Of a DNA stretch of 41,285 bases, positions 5,651 to 28,162 are shown one piece after another; within the stretch, counting starts at the first letter, position 1, and every line of letters begins with the position of its first letter. The notes beneath the pieces are model-generated. The model was not told where the DNA came from. It saw only the letters and a program-made list of their open reading frames with translations, and did not search any database. The translations under genes were made by a program, and so were the position numbers. Source of the stretch: a virus. The stretch covers positions 1-41,285 of the IMG/VR virus record IMGVR_UViG_3300031237_000264. One strand, 5' to 3'.

Positions 5651-6838
5651 TTACTCCCACGGCCCGGTCATGTCGATGAACACTCCACCAACACTGGTAT
5701 TACTGCCTTGTGCGCATGGAACGTACATGGCCTTCCTCATTCCAGATGGGAGAGAGACGGGCATGACCGCCATCGCGGCAAAGGAGAACACCGTGCGATG
5801 CAAGGGATAAAAGATACCCTTCAAATAGCCCCTCATAGCGATGTACCCGGTCGTGTATTCGATGATAGTCATCGGGCTCAGGCCTACAGCATTGGCCACC
5901 GCTGCAAGATCATTGGCCCCGAAAGTCTGGTTGGACCCTGAGAAGACATTGCTGGCAGCCAAGGCCACAGAACAATGGTAGGCGCGTCCGAATAGCACCC
6001 CTCCACCAGTTCTAGACGTGTACCCGGCATAAGTGGCCGAAGGCAATATGGCGCAATTACCCTGCGAATACGAGTTTGCGTAGGTGATTGCGGAAGTCAG
6101 CGGGCTGATGCTGCTCTCGGCTAGCAGGTAAACATTGCCGATTTCTGCGGGATTCACCGAAGCGAAGTCACCGAAGTAGTACAGGTTGTACACGAACAAC
6201 CCAGAGTTGCTGAATGTGAACAAGAAAAACCGCTTGTCGTCTCCAACCAAGACATACCGGCTAACTCCTGCACCCGCAGTAGTACCCTTGCACCAGCTCG
6301 TGGTCTTAGTAAAGACCGTGGGAGTTCCAGGCCAGATTCCGGTGCCGGCTGTGATGGAGGTCATGGCCTCTGCACCCCATACAGCAGCTCCGAAGGTGGT
6401 CGTATCGTCGATCACCAGGTAGTTCTTCTTCGAGGTGGCATTCAGCGAGCGATAGGCCGCCAGGTTCGTCCCCGAGAACGGCTTCTCCCATCCCAGCGGG
6501 GCCTGCTTGACCGTGATCGTGCCGGTGGCAGTAGCCGGGGCGCCAGTGATGGCAAACGTGAACGTGTTCAGGTCAGGGGCGCTCAGGACCTGGAACTCGC
6601 TGTTAAATACTGCTTCATTGGCGTTGGCAAACAATACCCACATATCGGGCATGAACCCGTGGTTGTTGCAGATCACAGTGGCAATGCCTCCGCTCACTGC
6701 AATTGATTGCAGAGTCTGCAGGTTGGCACCGTTGACCAATGCCGAGTCCAGAAATGCAATCAGATTCCCTGCCACGATGCTAGCTGCCGTAAGACCGGCA
6801 TGCCTGGCGGAGTCGAAGCACTTGATATTCGCAGTCAT
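5651..6838 (-). CDS. Tail protein, paralogue of the adjacent upstream gene
   Basis: This 395-aa protein is clearly related to the neighbouring 392-aa product. Both have an N-terminal half with an HG-x-x-x-G/D turn, a (N/S)EAVFN or NESVFN segment, then GAPA(T/A)ATG, a QA-x-L-x-WEK-x-FS motif and (T)NLA-x-YRS. Its ATG (6838) abuts the TAA of the paralogue, so the two are co-translated. The N-terminal part resembles small beta domains found in virion proteins; the C-terminal half is Ala/Gly/Ser/Tyr-rich without recognised motifs. A structural role in the tail tip or fibre is inferred from position and duplication. Codon use is more A/T-rich than in the tape measure or capsid genes. Confidence 0.7.
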   Translation of the reverse strand: MTANIKCFDSARHAGLTAASIVAGNLIAFLDSALVNGANLQTLQSIAVSGGIATVICNNHGFMPDMWVLFANANEAVFNSEFQVLSAPDLNTFTFAITGAPATATGTITVKQAPLGWEKPFSGTNLAAYRSLNATSKKNYLVIDDTTTFGAAVWGAEAMTSITAGTGIWPGTPTVFTKTTSWCKGTTAGAGVSRYVLVGDDKRFFLFTFSNSGLFVYNLYYFGDFASVNPAEIGNVYLLAESSISPLTSAITYANSYSQGNCAILPSATYAGYTSRTGGGVLFGRAYHCSVALAASNVFSGSNQTFGANDLAAVANAVGLSPMTIIEYTTGYIAMRGYLKGIFYPLHRTVFSFAAMAVMPVSLPSGMRKAMYVPCAQGSNTSVGGVFIDMTGPWE

Positions 6839-8017
6839 TTACATGCTCCAGGGGCCGGTCACGTCGAATCCATTTAACCCGTTTGCATTGCCGGAGCTCT
6901 GAATGGTCACTAGAGCGATACTCCTGCCGGGCAACTCGGGGGAGACCACCATCTGCTCAGCGGGGATGTTACTTGCCGCCCCAAAATTCACAGGAATAAA
7001 CAACGCGCCCGGAATGTTCCCTCTCAAGCCAAGCCCCTCCCAGAGTTGGCAGGGGAACAGCGTGATCACATTACCCGCCCAGTTGGGCCACGGAGAGCCT
7101 GCAGCCCCGCTGGCGGCAGCCGCAGAGTTGCAATTGATACTTCCTTTTGACCCCCAGGTAATCGAAGGGTATGTCCCCATCATGTTGCGCAGAATCGCCG
7201 TAGACCCGCCAGTGGTAGCCCCTGGGTTGAAGTTTCCGTAAGCGACAGCGGACCCTGGATAGGTCTCCAAAATAGCTGAATGGTTGCCCAGGAACATGGC
7301 GTTGTAGGCGTCACCTACCTTGTAGGAACGAAACTCTCCCATTCCATACCAAGCCCGAACGTTCGGGCTGGCCGTGTTAAATGCGGGCAGGAAATAGAAC
7401 AGCCTGGAGTTACCAATGACGATCCAGGGTTTCGCTGTGGTTTCTGCCGCCACGCCCGATTGCCACACCCCGTAAGCCTGCCCAGCCACGGCGCTGTGGT
7501 CCCCTCCAACCCCGGTGGACACCGAGTTCATGGACTCATACATCCGCATCCGTGCCCAGTAAGCGAACGTGTTGTCCACGCTCAGCACCGGCTTGATAGA
7601 GCGCGGGTCAGTGGACCTGTAGCAGGCCAGGTTCGTATTGGAGAACTGCTTCTCCCAGTTGAGGGCGGCTTGCTTCGACGTGATCGAACCACCAGTGGCC
7701 GCAGCGGGGGCTCCAACAGGGGCCACACAGGTGTAGGACACCGGAGATGGGACCGTCTGCACGACGAACTCATCGTTGAACACCGACTCATTGGCACCGG
7801 CAATAGCCAACACTTGGCCGACCACCATGCCGTGGGCAGTCGTGGTCGTCACGGTCATCACGCCGTCCGCCACCGTAATTGATTGCACGGCTTTCGAGTT
7901 GTACCCGTTCAGCAGCACAGCATCCAGCAGACCGATGATGGAGCCGGCCGCCCCGATTAGCGAGGGAGCACCGGCATCCGTGCTACGAAATACTTTGATT
8001 GCGTCAGGCAGGCTCAT
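6839..8017 (-). CDS. Tail protein, paralogue of the adjacent downstream gene
   Basis: This 392-aa tail protein shares its layout with the 395-aa product immediately downstream. Around residues 50-100 it has a beta-domain with TTAHGMVVGQ and ANESVFNDEF, followed by GAPAAATGG, a QAALNWEKQFS motif near residue 117 and NLACYRSTDP near 127. The tandem pair probably arose by gene duplication followed by divergence. They could form a hetero-oligomeric tip or be alternative adhesins. It starts 2 nt after the stop of the 1221-aa gene. The last residues (FDVTGPWSM) echo the DMTGPWE end of its paralogue. Function is not established. Confidence 0.7.
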   Translation of the reverse strand: MSLPDAIKVFRSTDAGAPSLIGAAGSIIGLLDAVLLNGYNSKAVQSITVADGVMTVTTTTAHGMVVGQVLAIAGANESVFNDEFVVQTVPSPVSYTCVAPVGAPAAATGGSITSKQAALNWEKQFSNTNLACYRSTDPRSIKPVLSVDNTFAYWARMRMYESMNSVSTGVGGDHSAVAGQAYGVWQSGVAAETTAKPWIVIGNSRLFYFLPAFNTASPNVRAWYGMGEFRSYKVGDAYNAMFLGNHSAILETYPGSAVAYGNFNPGATTGGSTAILRNMMGTYPSITWGSKGSINCNSAAAASGAAGSPWPNWAGNVITLFPCQLWEGLGLRGNIPGALFIPVNFGAASNIPAEQMVVSPELPGRSIALVTIQSSGNANGLNGFDVTGPWSM

Positions 8018-19865: not shown

Positions 19866-20933
19866 TTAGGCAAGCCAGGGCGTCACCAGGACGTCCACCA
19901 CGTCGCGGTTGATGTTGGTGGCGCCGGCCGCGTTCCGCTCGGCCTTGACCACCTCCAGTGCCTGGGCGCGCATGCTGGGGGGCACCACCAGGAGCTTCGG
20001 GCGGATGCCCAGCGGATTGCCGTTGTCGCCCTTGGTGGACTGCATCGCCGCATAGGCATCGTTGAATGCCTGGCCGTCCAGGGCTTCCCGGCTGGCATAG
20101 GCCAGTTGCCAGAGGCCGAAGCCGACGTTGCTGCGGGCGTCGACGCCGTAGACGTATTCCTTCCGGTTGAAGACGTTGTCGTCGTCTTCCTTGTCGCGGG
20201 CCACGAAGTTGTACGGCTTGCGCACCTGGTAGATGATCGGCTTGATCACGCGGGTGGTGTCCAGCAGGAACCACGGGGTACCGCTGCCGCCCTGGAAGTT
20301 GGATACCGAGGCGGTGCCGCTGCCCGGCGCCATCACGGGGTGATCGGTATCGAAGAAATACTGGCCGTCGTAGCACGCACGGTTGAAGCCGTTCTTGAGC
20401 AGGCCCCAGGTCAGGATGTCCGGATGTTGCTTGGCGTCTTGTCCCAACTGGGAGACCGCGGGCGTGTACAGGCCATAGGTATCGTCTTCGATGGTCCTGC
20501 GCGGAATACCGATGGTGTTTTCCCACTCCTTGTTCTTGATGGTGAAGTCGTGGGTACCCAGGTTCTGCACCACGCGATCACCGATCCATTCGCGGAAGCT
20601 AGTGCTCTGACCGAGCCAGGGATAGACCTCTTGACTGGTGGTCGACGGCACCTGCATTGCGATCTGCGCGTAGTCGGAGGGCGCGCCCGCGAAAGCGTTC
20701 TGGAAGGTCAACTTGAAGCCGCGGAACATGGCGTCCAGGTTCGCGCGGTTGATCAGCATGCCGGCGGCCGCGAAGCCCAAGGCGCGCTCGTCGGGCACGA
20801 AAAGACTGGACACCAGGGCGGGCGCCGAGGCCGCGTGCGGCATGAGCAGGTGCACGACCAGGACGGTGGCGATGGCGGCGGCCGCGGCCGCGGCAAAGAG
20901 CAGCAAGCCAGCCGAGCGGAGAGAGCGTTTCAT
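19866..20933 (-). CDS. Major capsid protein (Mu T-like) with N-terminal hydrophobic extension
   Basis: The conserved capsid domain begins at residue 59 (MLINRANLDAMFRGF) and includes REWIGDRVVQNL, KEWENTIGIPR, DTYGLY and YDGQYFFDTDHPVM, diagnostic of the Mu T family. The full ORF is 355 aa, against about 297 aa from that internal methionine, close to Mu T. The first 58 residues form a signal-peptide-like segment: basic MKRSLR, a hydrophobic stretch at residues 9-31, then HAASAPA. The ATG at 20933 has AGGAG 9 nt upstream, whereas the internal ATG at 20759 has no ribosome-binding site, so translation of the extension is favoured. Protease I could trim it. It is an unusual feature. Confidence 0.9.
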   Translation of the reverse strand: MKRSLRSAGLLLFAAAAAAAIATVLVVHLLMPHAASAPALVSSLFVPDERALGFAAAGMLINRANLDAMFRGFKLTFQNAFAGAPSDYAQIAMQVPSTTSQEVYPWLGQSTSFREWIGDRVVQNLGTHDFTIKNKEWENTIGIPRRTIEDDTYGLYTPAVSQLGQDAKQHPDILTWGLLKNGFNRACYDGQYFFDTDHPVMAPGSGTASVSNFQGGSGTPWFLLDTTRVIKPIIYQVRKPYNFVARDKEDDDNVFNRKEYVYGVDARSNVGFGLWQLAYASREALDGQAFNDAYAAMQSTKGDNGNPLGIRPKLLVVPPSMRAQALEVVKAERNAAGATNINRDVVDVLVTPWLA

Positions 20934-20967
20934 GGGATGAGGCTCCTGAAGTGGAAGGGGGGGGGTG

Positions 20968-21375
20968 TTACAGGGCGATCCAGACGCCGCCGGCATCCAC
21001 GTCCCGGACCTTGCCGGCCACGGAGCGCGTGGCGGTGCCGTCCGTCTTTGCGACGGTCTGGTCGTCGACGATGTAGGCGTCCTTGCCGACGTCGGCCAGC
21101 GTGATCTGGTCGGCCGCGGCCGAGTTGTCGAAGCGCCAGACCTCGCCGCGGCGAACCGGCACCAACACGGCACCGTTGGCGCCGCTGGTGTTGTCGACTG
21201 GCTCCTCGGCGATGCCGACCGAGATCAGGCCGGTGGCGGTCCGGCCGGGAGCGGCCCAGCCGCCGTCCAGTACCACCTGGGTGCCTGCGAAAATGCGCAC
21301 GCCGGCCTTCGCCGGGAAGGCGAAGTTGGTCCCGGCGCGGCGCGGGGTGTTGCGATCTGCTACTGCAGCGGACAT
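20968..21375 (-). CDS. Small head protein (decoration-like)
   Basis: This 135-aa protein lies between the protease/scaffold and capsid genes, where many phages encode a capsid decoration or stabilising protein. The sequence is beta-rich and glycine-rich (FAFPAKAGVRIFAGTQVVLD, then GLISVGIAEEPVDN), similar in style to DUF2190-type head proteins. ATG 21375 has GGAG 6 nt upstream; an ATG at 21381 has a poorer context. No cysteines or membrane segment. The decoration role is inferred from position and composition. Confidence 0.7.
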   Translation of the reverse strand: MSAAVADRNTPRRAGTNFAFPAKAGVRIFAGTQVVLDGGWAAPGRTATGLISVGIAEEPVDNTSGANGAVLVPVRRGEVWRFDNSAAADQITLADVGKDAYIVDDQTVAKTDGTATRSVAGKVRDVDAGGVWIAL

Positions 21376-21430
21376 GCCCATCTCCTAGAAATGAAAGGCA
21401 ACGGTAGGACGGCGACCAAGTCGGCCGCGG

Positions 21431-22000
21431 TTATGCCTGCTCGGCCAGGCTCTTTTTGTAAGCTTCGGGATCGATGCCCATCGACCGGCAGACCGCCAGC
21501 TCGCCTTCCGACAGCTCGGTACGCGGCTGACCGGACGGGGTCTTGCCTTCGGTCTGCATGCCCTTCAGTGCGGCGATGGGCTGCGCCTTGTCCAGGAAGG
21601 CCCGCAGCGATGCGATGTCCTTGGCGCCGAGCTCCTTGGCCCAGCTTTCCTGAGCCGGCAGCAGCTTGCCGGTGCTCAGCGCGCCGGCGACCAGCTCGTC
21701 GACGTCGCGCCCTTGGACTTGCGCGCTGAGCGCTGCGACCTGTTGCTGCACGGCCGCCATCGCCTCGATGGGCACGTACATGGCCGGGTCGACATGGCCG
21801 CCGCTGGACTTCAGCGCGGCGATCTCGGCATCCTTGCCGGCGATGGTGGCCACCTTGGTATTCAGGGCGGCGATCTCGGTGTCCTTGGCCTGGGCCGAGT
21901 CGGCCAGGGCCTTCAGCGCCGTGAGGCCGGCGGTGGCGCCGGCTTCGGTGTGGTCGTTCAGGCCGAGTTTCTTCAGCAGGTCAATAAGCCACTGGGGCAT
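21431..22000 (-). CDS. Nested in-frame scaffold (Mu Z-like) from internal start
   Basis: Inside the protease gene, ATG 22000 (Met177 of the long form, MPQWLIDLLKKLG) is preceded by GAGGAG 6 nt upstream, a better ribosome-binding site than that of the long form. This start yields a 189-aa protein consisting of only the scaffold domain. In Mu, gene Z is an internal in-frame scaffold of gene I, and the same nested arrangement is strongly suggested here. It would supply excess scaffold over protease. Confidence 0.8.
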   Translation of the reverse strand: MPQWLIDLLKKLGLNDHTEAGATAGLTALKALADSAQAKDTEIAALNTKVATIAGKDAEIAALKSSGGHVDPAMYVPIEAMAAVQQQVAALSAQVQGRDVDELVAGALSTGKLLPAQESWAKELGAKDIASLRAFLDKAQPIAALKGMQTEGKTPSGQPRTELSEGELAVCRSMGIDPEAYKKSLAEQA

Positions 22001-22528
22001 GGTGTTCTCCTCGTCGAGGGGGAGTTGGAAATGCGCTGCCGCCCGCAGCGCAACTTCGGACATTCCATCCAGGGCGGGGAAATTGGTCAGGGCTGCGTGC
22101 AGGATCTGCAGCACCTCGCCGGTATGGCGGTCGTAGGTGAAGACGGGGGACAGGTAGATGTACTCGCGTGCCCCAATCATCTGGCGGGCGCGGTCCGTCC
22201 AATCGGTATCGATGGCGAACAGACCATTGCCTTCGCGCCAATCCATCTGTTTGAAGAAGCCGGCGGCTGGGGCAGGCTGGCCGTTCTTCTCAGCGTTGAG
22301 GGTCTGGTGCTCGTAGTCGATGACGATGCGCCGGGCGTCGGCGTTGGCCTGAGCGATCAGTCGCTGGGCGACCTCAGCCGTGCAGATCCAGGCCGCACAT
22401 TCGGTCGGTCGGCCATCGCGAGCGCGGAAGCTGCCAGCAGGCAGCAACTGCAGCGGGGCCACCTCGCCGGCATCGGTCAGGGTGACTTCGAAAGAGAGGG
22501 TGGCAACGCCAACGGCAGTTCGCTTCAT
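21431..22528 (-). CDS. Mu I-like prohead protease / scaffold precursor
   Basis: This 365-aa protein follows the Mu I design: an N-terminal protease domain, then a scaffold domain. The protease part (residues 1-170) has the IDYEHQT motif with His74 and a YLSPVF motif with Ser127, the likely catalytic pair of the Mu I-type family. The scaffold part from about 177 is an Ala/Lys/Glu-rich coiled coil (KALADSAQAKDTEIAALN). The ATG at 22528 has a weak ribosome-binding site and a hairpin directly upstream. It acts during prohead assembly, cleaving scaffold and perhaps capsid termini. It is the first gene after a 255-bp gene-free gap. Confidence 0.9.
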   Translation of the reverse strand: MKRTAVGVATLSFEVTLTDAGEVAPLQLLPAGSFRARDGRPTECAAWICTAEVAQRLIAQANADARRIVIDYEHQTLNAEKNGQPAPAAGFFKQMDWREGNGLFAIDTDWTDRARQMIGAREYIYLSPVFTYDRHTGEVLQILHAALTNFPALDGMSEVALRAAAHFQLPLDEENTMPQWLIDLLKKLGLNDHTEAGATAGLTALKALADSAQAKDTEIAALNTKVATIAGKDAEIAALKSSGGHVDPAMYVPIEAMAAVQQQVAALSAQVQGRDVDELVAGALSTGKLLPAQESWAKELGAKDIASLRAFLDKAQPIAALKGMQTEGKTPSGQPRTELSEGELAVCRSMGIDPEAYKKSLAEQA

Positions 22529-24789: not shown

Positions 24790-26373
24790 TCAGGCTGCCG
24801 ATTCGTCGTCTGCCGCCAGGCGCCCGACCAGGTCGGCGGCGAACAGCATGTTGGAAAGCGTTTCCTGCAGTTGGGTGTCGTCCATGTTCGGGAACGCATC
24901 GGCCAGCAGGGCCAGCACCGCATCGGGACTGTCGGCGGCCTGGACCTGCGCAAGCAGGTTGACCATCAGCGCCGCGGCCTGGTCCTGCAGGCCGCCATTG
25001 GCACCCAGGCGGGTCACGGCTCCATCGAGCAGGGTCTGGTCGGGGAAGGACGGCTCCGACGCCGCGCGCAGCGCCGCCCGCGCCGCGGCCGGCGGCTCGG
25101 GCGGCGTCACGGGAGCAGCACTCCGGCGAGCCAGGATCGGCTCGTCGGCCTGGCGGTCCGGGACGCCGAATTTCCGCCGTGCCCACTGCTGCGGCACCTC
25201 CAGCCCCACGTCGACCATCTTGGGTATGGCGTCCGACAGCGCGGCGATGTCCTCCGGCTCCCGGGCATCGAATACCAGGCGCGGCCGCCGGCGGGGATCG
25301 TCGATGGTCTGCCCGTTTAACACCAGGATCGGGAACACCAGGTCACGAGACAGGGTTGGGCCGAGCTGGCGGCAATCCGAGGCGGACAGATCATGCCGTA
25401 CCTCGTTGTGAACGTTGCCCAGGGCATTGGTGGAGCTCTTGCCGTCCGCCTGACTGGTCAGCGTGCCGCCAAGGATCGCCTTGGACATCGAGCGTTCCAT
25501 CAACTCGACCATCGCCTCGAATGGCACTTCCGTTCCCACGGCGGCATTCTCGAAGTCGATGGACATGGTGTCAGGGATGATCCCGGCCGCAGAGTGCCCC
25601 AGCTGCGTGACCGCGCGCAGGAGCGCAGCCTTTTCCGCATCGCCCGAGCCGGAGGGGTATTTCCCCAGGCGGAGAGGCATGCCGTAGATCTCCAGCAGCT
25701 CGGCCAGATCCCGCACCGCGTAATTCTTGAACAGGTACGGGAATGCCAGGATGCGATGCAGGCCGGCTCGCGCCACGTAGCCCGACTTCGCGCGATGGAT
25801 GTGCCTCACCCAGCCGAAGGGGATCAGCTCGGCCCCATCCGGAGAGTTGTCGCACAGATGCAGCGCATTCTGGTCATACTGCGAGACCTGAAACCATGAC
25901 TGCGGCCGATGGTGAAGTGATTTGGGGAGCCATGTGCGCCCCAACTGCTGCCACTCGATCTCCAGGCAGGAGAAGCCGTGGCCGATGCCGTCCAGCGCAT
26001 CGAGCAGGATGTCCTCCCAGCCCGCGAGATCGGTCATGAGCTCCGCTGCGAATTCGGCCTGCTTTTTCTCGGCGGCGCTCGCGTTCGGCGGTGGCTGGAT
26101 CGTCCAGTCAATCGACAGGATGGCACGCTTGCGCTTGCTCATCTCGGCGAACAGGTGCGCGTCGCGCTCTTCCATATCCGCGAAGAGTTCGGCCTGCGCC
26201 TGGAGGTTGCCTTTCTCGGCTTCCTCCAGGATGCGCACCAGCTTCATCGGCGTCAGGCCGCGTGCCGGGTGATTGGCGTACTCGCGCTGGAGCTGGGTGA
26301 GCTGTGCGGTCTGCGGCTCGGCCAGGACGCGCCGGTCGATGGGCTTGCCGTATTGGTCAAGAATGGTCGCCAT
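24790..26373 (-). CDS. Portal protein (DUF935, Mu gp29-like)
   Basis: The 527-aa protein is the DUF935-family portal, the dodecameric ring through which DNA is packaged and ejected. Characteristic segments are TPMKLVRILEEAEKGNLQAQ, a LFADMEERDAHLFAEMSKRK stretch, ILSIDWTIQP and GFSCLEIEWQ. The acidic/polar C-terminus (after about residue 450) is variable, as in the family. Its ATG at 26373 comes 4 nt after the terminase stop. It precedes the F-like gene, matching Mu order. Confidence 0.92.
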   Translation of the reverse strand: MATILDQYGKPIDRRVLAEPQTAQLTQLQREYANHPARGLTPMKLVRILEEAEKGNLQAQAELFADMEERDAHLFAEMSKRKRAILSIDWTIQPPPNASAAEKKQAEFAAELMTDLAGWEDILLDALDGIGHGFSCLEIEWQQLGRTWLPKSLHHRPQSWFQVSQYDQNALHLCDNSPDGAELIPFGWVRHIHRAKSGYVARAGLHRILAFPYLFKNYAVRDLAELLEIYGMPLRLGKYPSGSGDAEKAALLRAVTQLGHSAAGIIPDTMSIDFENAAVGTEVPFEAMVELMERSMSKAILGGTLTSQADGKSSTNALGNVHNEVRHDLSASDCRQLGPTLSRDLVFPILVLNGQTIDDPRRRPRLVFDAREPEDIAALSDAIPKMVDVGLEVPQQWARRKFGVPDRQADEPILARRSAAPVTPPEPPAAARAALRAASEPSFPDQTLLDGAVTRLGANGGLQDQAAALMVNLLAQVQAADSPDAVLALLADAFPNMDDTQLQETLSNMLFAADLVGRLAADDESAA

Positions 26374-26377
26374 AGTC

Positions 26378-28162
26378 TTACCAGTTGCCTCCAAAGAGGC
26401 CGTTGTCATCTTCGGCACCGGCGTTGCCCTCTGCCATCGAATGGTGGCGTGGCGCCGGCGTGAAGTCGAAGTTCCCGGCGCCGCGACTGATGGCGATGGC
26501 GTGCAGGAGGTGCAGCGCGGTGAGGCCGTCGTAGTGGTGATTGGTCTGCGGCTCCGGCCAGGTGTCCAGCTCGGACAGCAGCTGGGCCTGGCTCGCGTGG
26601 AACAGAATCGTCGGCACGAGCGGATCGGTAACGAACGGCTCTAGCGAATCGATGCGTACCGGGGCTGGCACCGTGGCCGTCACGCCAACGAGCGGCAGCG
26701 CCACGCCCTTGCGTGCCGCGTCCTGGATGAAGGTCTGCCGCGAGTGCTCATAGGCGTTGTTGTTCTCAAAGGCCCAGGCACGGCATTTGAATTCTTGCTG
26801 CGCTGCGATCAGGTCGGAGCTGAGCTTGGAGGGCACACGGCGCTTGATAAGTGCCGTGATCACATGGAGTTTCATGTTCCAGGTGTCCAGGCCACCGATG
26901 ACCAGCGCGGATGGGTCCGACGTTTCCCCCGCGCCCATCGACGGATCGCAGCCGCCGTACATGATCCAGTGGTGCAGGCGGGATACCCAGAAGGTGATCT
27001 TGCCGAAGACCTTCTCGTCTTCCGAGCGCGGATCACCTTGCATCTCGGTGTTGAACGCCTTGCGCGCGGTGGCGCGCTGACGCATCAGCCAGAACAGCGG
27101 GCGGACGGACGGCCACGAGATCACGGCACCCAGCTCCATCTCCACCCGGTGTGCCAGGTAGAACAGGTACGACGGCAGCTCCGTTTCCGGTACCACGCGG
27201 CCGGCCTGTGTCGCGGCCTCGACGAAGGGCTTGTCGTCGTTGAGCATGAGCTGCTCGCATTCCTCCCACAGGTTCATGTGGGTGGGCAGCGTCTCGATGG
27301 CGCGGAAATGGTGGACGGTGTGACCGATGGTGGCCTTGGCGCGCGAGATCGGATCGTCCTTCTGCAGGACCGTGCCGACGCCCATGTATTTAACCGTGCC
27401 GTCCGGCGGTCCCAGATAGTCGATTGCCTTGGTCAACCAGGTCCAGCGGTTGTCCCGCTCGGTCGGGCTCTTGGCTTCCGCATCGGTGATCAGATCGTCG
27501 CCCATGAGCAGCTTGGGCCGGGACGCGCCGTGGAACGTGCCACGGATCGCCTGCTCGGCCCCGAAGGGCTCGACCTTCACGCCGGTCTTGGTGATGATCT
27601 CCCCAACCTTCCAGGTCGGCCCCTTGCCGCACACCTCTGGGAAGTCCAGGGCCAGCGCAGCATTGACCGTCAGCTCGGTCTTGATGACCTCCAGCAGCTT
27701 CGTGGGCAGCTTCGTCTCGGCGCCCAGCAGGATGATGTAGTCGATGAAGGGCGGCAGCTCGCCAGTCCAACCCACCTCCTTGCGGATATCGGGGCGCTGC
27801 AGCAGCCCCTGCACCGCACACCATACCGGGCCGACCTTGGTGAGCATCGACGACTTGGCCTCACCACGAGGCGCGATCCACCATTCTTTAACCCCGCCGG
27901 GCTGGCGCAGGAGTTGCGGAAACCGCGAGCAAAACTGCGCCTGGAACAGCGACGGCGTGCCGCGGATGTGGTGGGGGAAATAGGTGTAGGCGAAGAACTG
28001 GAAGTCGCCGTCGACCAGGACGCGCCGGCGGCGCGCCGCAATCGCGGCCGGACTTGCGTCCAGGCCGCTCTGGAAAGCTTCGATGTCGCGCCGGAGTTTG
28101 CCGCCGAGTTCCTTCAGCTCGTCAAGGAACTCCTTCTCGGAGAGCTTGATCAGGTCAGCCAT
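26378..28162 (-). CDS. Terminase large subunit
   Basis: This 594-aa ATPase/nuclease drives DNA packaging; in transposable phages it is used for headful packaging from host-flanked prophage DNA. The Walker A-like motif is PRGEAKSS (residues 98-105) and Walker B-like is KLLMGDD (about 217-223). A nuclease-domain aspartate is likely in YGGCDPSMG (Asp406), with another acidic site in HHYDGLTALH. The start could be GTG 28168 (596 aa) or ATG 28162; the ATG overlaps the small terminase by 8 nt. The family is Mu gp28-like. Confidence 0.93.
   Translation of the reverse strand: MADLIKLSEKEFLDELKELGGKLRRDIEAFQSGLDASPAAIAARRRRVLVDGDFQFFAYTYFPHHIRGTPSLFQAQFCSRFPQLLRQPGGVKEWWIAPRGEAKSSMLTKVGPVWCAVQGLLQRPDIRKEVGWTGELPPFIDYIILLGAETKLPTKLLEVIKTELTVNAALALDFPEVCGKGPTWKVGEIITKTGVKVEPFGAEQAIRGTFHGASRPKLLMGDDLITDAEAKSPTERDNRWTWLTKAIDYLGPPDGTVKYMGVGTVLQKDDPISRAKATIGHTVHHFRAIETLPTHMNLWEECEQLMLNDDKPFVEAATQAGRVVPETELPSYLFYLAHRVEMELGAVISWPSVRPLFWLMRQRATARKAFNTEMQGDPRSEDEKVFGKITFWVSRLHHWIMYGGCDPSMGAGETSDPSALVIGGLDTWNMKLHVITALIKRRVPSKLSSDLIAAQQEFKCRAWAFENNNAYEHSRQTFIQDAARKGVALPLVGVTATVPAPVRIDSLEPFVTDPLVPTILFHASQAQLLSELDTWPEPQTNHHYDGLTALHLLHAIAISRGAGNFDFTPAPRHHSMAEGNAGAEDDNGLFGGNW

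Follow-up and report, generated by a model that had tools for sequence, protein, structure and literature searches.

The major capsid protein of the Mu-like phage analysed here begins with a 58-residue leader that almost certainly exists and is translated, and that, judged by its sequence, has the architecture of a Sec signal or signal anchor. Comparison with relatives indicates that the leader is a module that has been repeatedly gained or lost and swapped between capsid genes. Tailed-phage capsid proteins are generally regarded as cytoplasmic. The pattern of leaders suggests that some phage shells begin attached to the host inner membrane. In the reading that we favour, to which we assign a probability of about one half, the leader would be a propeptide that directs the shell protein to the membrane and is then cut off at a conserved junction during head maturation.

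The capsid gene and its start

The window, a 41,285-nucleotide stretch of viral DNA, carries a Mu transposase, an adjoining AAA ATPase, a Mu portal, Mu F, GemA, and a Mu I-type protease-scaffold gene, and can therefore be assigned to a Mu-like transposable phage (Table 1). Its Mu gpT-type capsid gene follows the protease-scaffold gene and then a small head gene. The capsid gene occupies 19866–20933 on the minus strand, running from an ATG at 20933 to a stop at 19866, and encodes 355 residues. Because this is the only gpT gene in the record, it must be the one that builds the shell of this phage. Likewise, a single gpT gene is found in each of 18/18 phage contigs and in all five host genomes that hold five leader loci. 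The Pfam gpT domain (PF10124) covers capsid residues 66–354 (model positions 1–289 of 289, E = 2.4e-121), and the match to the PHROG major head family (phrog_371) begins at residue 59. The 58 residues added ahead of the capsid domain (MKRSLRSAGLLLFAAAAAAAIATVLVVHLLMPHAASAPALVSSLFVPDERALGFAAAG) are followed by a Met at 20757–20759, the first codon of the core, which aligns with the start of leaderless relatives.

The initial annotation of this DNA had placed the start at an upstream ATG preceded by AGGAG, had found the internal Met to be without a ribosome-binding site, and had described the extension as Sec-signal-like, with MKRSLR, a hydrophobic stretch of about 23 residues, and HAASAPA. A motif scan bears out both statements about the starts: TTCAGGAGCCTCATCCC lies directly 5′ of ATG 20933, with the AGGAG at good spacing, and no Shine-Dalgarno motif accompanies the ATG at 20759. 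All of the named elements of the extension are present as well, the hydrophobic part comprising 21 residues. If translation nevertheless began at 20759, the upstream frame would be meaningless and the leader an annotation artefact. The alignment of the internal Met with the start of leaderless relatives fits such a start. The missing Shine-Dalgarno motif at 20759 and the good one at 20933 argue against it, as do the aligned residue, which is Leu or Ile and not Met in 18 of 21 leader genes, and the lack of any hydrophobic in-frame stretch upstream of the 237 leaderless genes described below. We reject an internal start and give the artefact hardly any probability.

Within the protease gene of the window, an internal in-frame ATG at 22000 behind GAGGAG is likely a separate scaffold start, as in Mu I/Z. 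In the tail region, two adjoining genes at 5651–8017 (395 and 392 aa), both assigned to phrog_9998, are probably a tandem duplication.

Table 1. Features of the capsid gene and neighbouring head genes in the window
Feature	Positions	Strand	Basis or remark
Shine-Dalgarno AGGAG of the long capsid gene	20943..20947	-	sequence, motif scan; spacing 9
Leader, 58 residues, start ATG 20931-20933	20760..20933	-	sequence, motif scan, recurrence in relatives
n-region MKRSLR, positive (+3)	20916..20933	-	leader layout analysis
Hydrophobic stretch, 21 residues, mean KD 2.35; AlphaFold helix residues 2-30	20853..20915	-	
Linker HLLMPHAASAPALVSSLFVPDER, with APA↓LV signal-peptidase-like site; AlphaFold confidence low from about residue 33 to 55	20784..20852	-	
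Gly/Ala-rich junction ALGFAAAG, ending directly before the ordinary start Met position; proposed processing after Gly58	20760..20783	-	
Capsid core, Mu gpT family (PF10124), 297 residues and stop	19866..20759	-	
Head gene between protease and capsid, virion structural protein (phrog_1731)	20968..21381	-	
Mu I-type prohead protease and scaffold (PF10123)	21431..22528	-	
Mu-type portal (PF06074)	24790..26418	-	

Recurrence of the leader among relatives

Relatives were gathered in five viral-contig scans and one genome-contig scan, and two loci from phage records were added, for 397 loci in all. Dropping identical cores and cores shorter than 250 aa left 261 distinct capsid cores. Most of these (237) are leaderless and use the usual start position, backed by a Shine-Dalgarno motif; a further six start there without such a motif. 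In sixteen cores, a strong Shine-Dalgarno motif precedes a leader and the usual position lacks a motif-backed start, and one more (L139) has a leader and was flagged as having both starts solely through a weak in-frame GTG. The last is a distant Salinibacter protein. The set of 262 rows used for trees consists of the 261 cores plus the window and L136, less the Salinibacter protein. L136, whose end is partial, was added by hand to trees and leader tables; L214 was omitted from these tables, its leader being identical to that of L134.

The initial annotation had proposed comparing homologous capsid genes for the extension, and it does recur: a leader is present in 19 of 262 distinct cores with the window counted, a figure that is not a rate because later scans were queried with leader genes. 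An in-frame hydrophobic 15-mer (KD ≥ 1.6) was found upstream of none of the 237 usual-start genes, 55 of which have at least 50 open codons there. These comparisons indicate that the window leader is more than a fortuitous open frame. When 399 Burkholderiales genomes were drawn separately, 3 of 20 gpT loci besides the centre genome proved to carry a leader (L429, L430, and L439); six further weak matches in this draw had no core hit and were left uncounted. Judged by length and start, none of 13 phage records has a leader on its annotated gpT gene (15 records were taken of 215 matching, the other two being unannotated).

Layout of the leaders and the Gly/Ala junction

The leaders follow a common plan: a positively charged start, a hydrophobic stretch of 16–25 residues, an acidic linker, and Gly or Ala directly before the usual start Met position. 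An n-region of +1 to +3 followed by the hydrophobic stretch is seen in 18/18 leaders (hydrophobicity was scored with Kyte-Doolittle and Hessa values). Summed over 21 leaders, the segment before the hydrophobic part holds 42 K/R and no D/E, and the linker holds 2 K/R and 39 D/E. The gap from the stop of the upstream head gene to the leader is 12–69 nt in the 17 leaders, out of 18, for which it was measured, within the range of leaderless loci (median 28). Leaders stay inside the interval that separates the core from the upstream head gene, and the spacing there is normal.

An AXA sequence follows the hydrophobic stretch in 17/18 leaders, as compared with 12.1 expected from shuffled tails, and true signal-peptidase sites are therefore only weakly indicated. 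Two leaders have textbook-like sites, APAFA↓AS in L139 and PAMA↓DV in L430. A PEP-CTERM-like sorting motif in the linker was considered and dropped, as it amounted to a single weak match (E 2.9, in L112).

Taken at face value, signal-like n, h, and c regions, the AXA count, and the textbook-like sites would suit a working Sec signal that is cut by host signal peptidase, with part of the shell protein exported for an extracytoplasmic job. Such export conflicts with the single gpT gene of the window, the 18 phage contigs, and the five leader host genomes, because shell protein that is exported would no longer be available to the head. Moreover, several leader genes (e.g., L134) lack any in-frame start close to the core that is backed by a ribosome-binding site and from which a leaderless form could be made. 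We consider true secretion improbable.

Immediately ahead of the old start position, 18 of 21 leaders have Gly and the other 3 have Ala, in a local G+A background of 0.37. The binomial chance of Gly or Ala at this place is 9e-10 for 21 rows, or 5e-5 if 10 are independent, values that serve as a guide only since the rows are related. The residue after the junction is Leu in 14, Ile in 4, and Met in 3 leaders. The usual-start genes have M-[mostly I or L]-[I or V]-N at the aligned place, and cutting at the junction would therefore leave a nearly ordinary N-terminus. Inspection of the protease-scaffold protein by eye revealed no Gly↓Leu site matching the junction.

Structure models

The AlphaFold model of the window protein consists of a single leader helix (residues 2–30), a linker of low confidence, an N-arm helix, and the core, with the leader emerging from the N-arm. 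The core has an HK97-type fold and fits best to the JBD30 procapsid subunit (8rkx_L, TMt 0.89, rmsd 2.4). A second model, of L029 (leader genes only), has a helix at residues 3–22, a linker of low confidence that extends through the Gly-rich junction, and an N-arm helix from residue 55. A junction modelled as flexible would be easy to cut, although flexibility itself is no proof of cleavage.

Neither model (window or L029) contains a second membrane helix. We had also considered a membrane hairpin with its second helix at the Gly-rich junction, for which the models thus give no support. The positive charge past the junction is no argument for a hairpin either, because leaderless relatives are positive there too (1.3 K/R vs 0.27 D/E per sequence).

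The N-arm of the JBD30 shell protein is described as a helix in the procapsid that unfolds on maturation and contacts neighbouring capsomers (PMC11445458). Shell residues 2–14 are described in the mature JBD30 particle (PMC11445458), which indicates that ordinary gpT shells keep their N-terminus. An extension on an arm that links capsomers could be structural, and the leader might accordingly persist in the mature shell, serving as an additional arm or anchor at the N-terminus. A retained leader is hard to reconcile with a junction fixed as Gly or Ala while the remaining leader varies freely, and with the many sisters that are leaderless; we give retention little credence.

Gain, loss, and exchange of the leader

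Leaders occur at dispersed positions in the capsid tree. For 46 cores, 17 of them with a leader, a careful tree needs 11 changes (11–12 over bootstraps), and a larger quick tree of 262 rows has 16, with at least 10 forced; the counted changes do not separate gain from loss. Grouping the leader genes into a single clade was rejected on the 46 cores (p-AU 3.3e-19). The closest relatives differ in this respect, as the sisters of the window, L001 and L081, have no leader, and leaderless sisters exist at ∼80% identity. L079 and L129 are nested in a leader clade and start without a leader and without a Shine-Dalgarno motif, a pattern that looks like leader loss.

The pair L068 and L238 points to exchange. 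Their leaders are 91.7% alike at the DNA level (dS 0.21) and the upstream DNA is 94.8% alike, and their cores are 68–69% alike (dS 1.87). Near-identical leader and upstream DNA on divergent cores implies that the leader moved between divergent capsid genes by recombination at the border of leader and core. The initial annotation had listed a captured segment among three origins of the N-terminus; that idea survives only as a module that is exchanged and lost, as seen in this pair and in the at least 11 tree changes.

In five related pairs, dN/dS is 0.39–0.54 for the leader and 0.13–0.29 for the core, and the leader value is 0.26 for L068/L238. In distant pairs, constraint on the leader is weak, with 0.64 for the window and L082 and 1.08 for L134/L065. 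The leader sequence thus seems to be weakly constrained, as expected where only the layout matters.

It could be speculated that hosts drive the polymorphism, with the leader kept and lost in turn so as to alter the view of capsid-sensing host defences. The 11 or more gains or losses and the recombination of leaders between genes would agree with such alternation, but this analysis tied neither a defence gene nor a host factor to the leader, and we regard the idea as very improbable. A comparison of gene content found no gene common to all six leader phages and absent from five leaderless ones. Many genes found in G001, G002, and G005 alone were set aside, because these three, half of the leader phages compared, have most of their genes in common.

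A proposed role in head assembly

We propose that the hydrophobic helix would draw new shell subunits to the inner membrane on its cytoplasmic side, and with them the prohead as it grows. As the head matures, the leader would then be severed at the Gly/Ala junction, with the Mu I-type prohead protease as the likeliest enzyme. The N-terminus of the cut subunit (MLIN/LVVN...) would match that of leaderless relatives (MIIN...), and the head would be freed for packaging. For the other two origins offered by the initial annotation, a delta-like piece removed by the protease and a membrane-tethered assembly intermediate, a mixture of the two appears to fit best, given the signal-like layout and the conserved small residue at the junction. 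Several points count against a membrane propeptide. An ordinary Sec signal would direct the shell protein into the periplasm, a compartment in which heads cannot be filled, and leaderless sisters at ∼80% identity manage without a leader. The lack of a leader-specific gene in the phages compared, the lack of a matching Gly↓Leu site on inspection of the protease-scaffold protein, the weak constraint in distant pairs, and the single hydrophobic helix of the models count against it as well.

A wider form of this proposal, which we hold only tentatively, treats the leader as a mobile, swappable membrane signal. Whole proheads would assemble on the inner membrane through the shell and not only the portal, a single Gly/Ala cut would release them with an ordinary N-terminus, and this mode of assembly would be gained or lost as a module.

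Alternatively, the leader might never meet the membrane and could act as an internal self-scaffold: the helices of hundreds of subunits would pack inside the procapsid, aid assembly, and then be removed. The capsid proteins of HK97 and T5 have scaffolding delta domains, and a domain of this kind takes over the role of a scaffold encoded separately (PMC3185693). A protease and scaffold gene lies near the capsid gene, and the conserved Gly/Ala junction could be a cut site. However, leader phages retain a separate Mu I/Z-type protease-scaffold gene, kept over nearly its full length where it was covered, so the leader does not replace a scaffold protein as an HK97/T5-type delta domain does. The charge asymmetry of the leader is also strongly signal-like and its hydrophobicity uniform. 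We consider a self-scaffold rather unlikely.

Relation to known systems

Mu gpT-type capsids (PF10124; Mu 9jod, JBD30 8rkx/8rkc) share the core and the gene order of protease-scaffold, head protein, and capsid with the leader phages, but they start directly at the core; the short form is found in 11/11 annotated capsid genes among 13 of the 15 phage records taken. HK97/T5 delta domains and the phage 7-7-1 propeptide resemble the leader as N-terminal pieces of a shell protein next to a prohead protease. For phage 7-7-1, only C-terminal capsid peptides are described in virions (PMC3517404). Unlike these propeptides, the window leader is hydrophobic, short, and signal-like, and close relatives may have it or lack it; its removal is a prediction.

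Membrane-associated head assembly has precedents. T4 heads start at the membrane via the portal and YidC, and there the portal, not the shell protein, makes the link. SPN3US proheads are described as staying on the membrane without protease, with release tied to proteolysis (PMC7411985). Both assemble heads on the inner membrane, as proposed here. The major coat protein pVIII of filamentous phages is likewise held in the inner membrane before assembly, but it belongs to an unrelated virus type, with a transmembrane helix and extruded virions (PMC3185693).

Our literature search returned nothing in print on Mu-type capsid leaders, their repeated gain or loss, or the junction residue. In the literature searched, signal peptides on tailed-phage capsid proteins appear in a single statement, which reports predicted signal peptides on the capsid proteins of Porphyromonas gingivalis phages (‘Nixviridae’; PMC10367356). 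Those phages differ in having Bacteroidota hosts and inserting into tRNA genes. The term Mu-like is absent from that paper, and its passages on the signal describe no recurrence, junction, or exchange (PMC10367356). The signal or transmembrane passages available from papers on Paracoccus, Variovorax, Aggregatibacter, Xanthomonas PBR31, and Burkholderia KL1/AH2 phages are not about capsid proteins.

With 11 or more gains or losses in a single capsid family, and an end point that is always the same, the leader makes shell-driven membrane assembly testable, and natural pairs at ∼80% identity with and without the leader are available.

Annotation of gpT genes

Gene callers or curators that cut capsid genes back to the recognised domain would discard a genuine segment of the protein. 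The gpT gene of Salinibacter phage M31CR41-3 (L396) was rejected as a leader case, as its sig_peptide label spans the whole gene and the frame ahead of the core is not hydrophobic. That record puts the same label on whole genes, gpT included, and it marks no real signal there. Several gpT-like genes from Burkholderiales (L433–L439) match PF10124 in the order 1–150, 222–289, 152–219, so that the C-terminal half is rearranged. One of them, L439, combines the rearranged order with a signal-like leader in a single gene.
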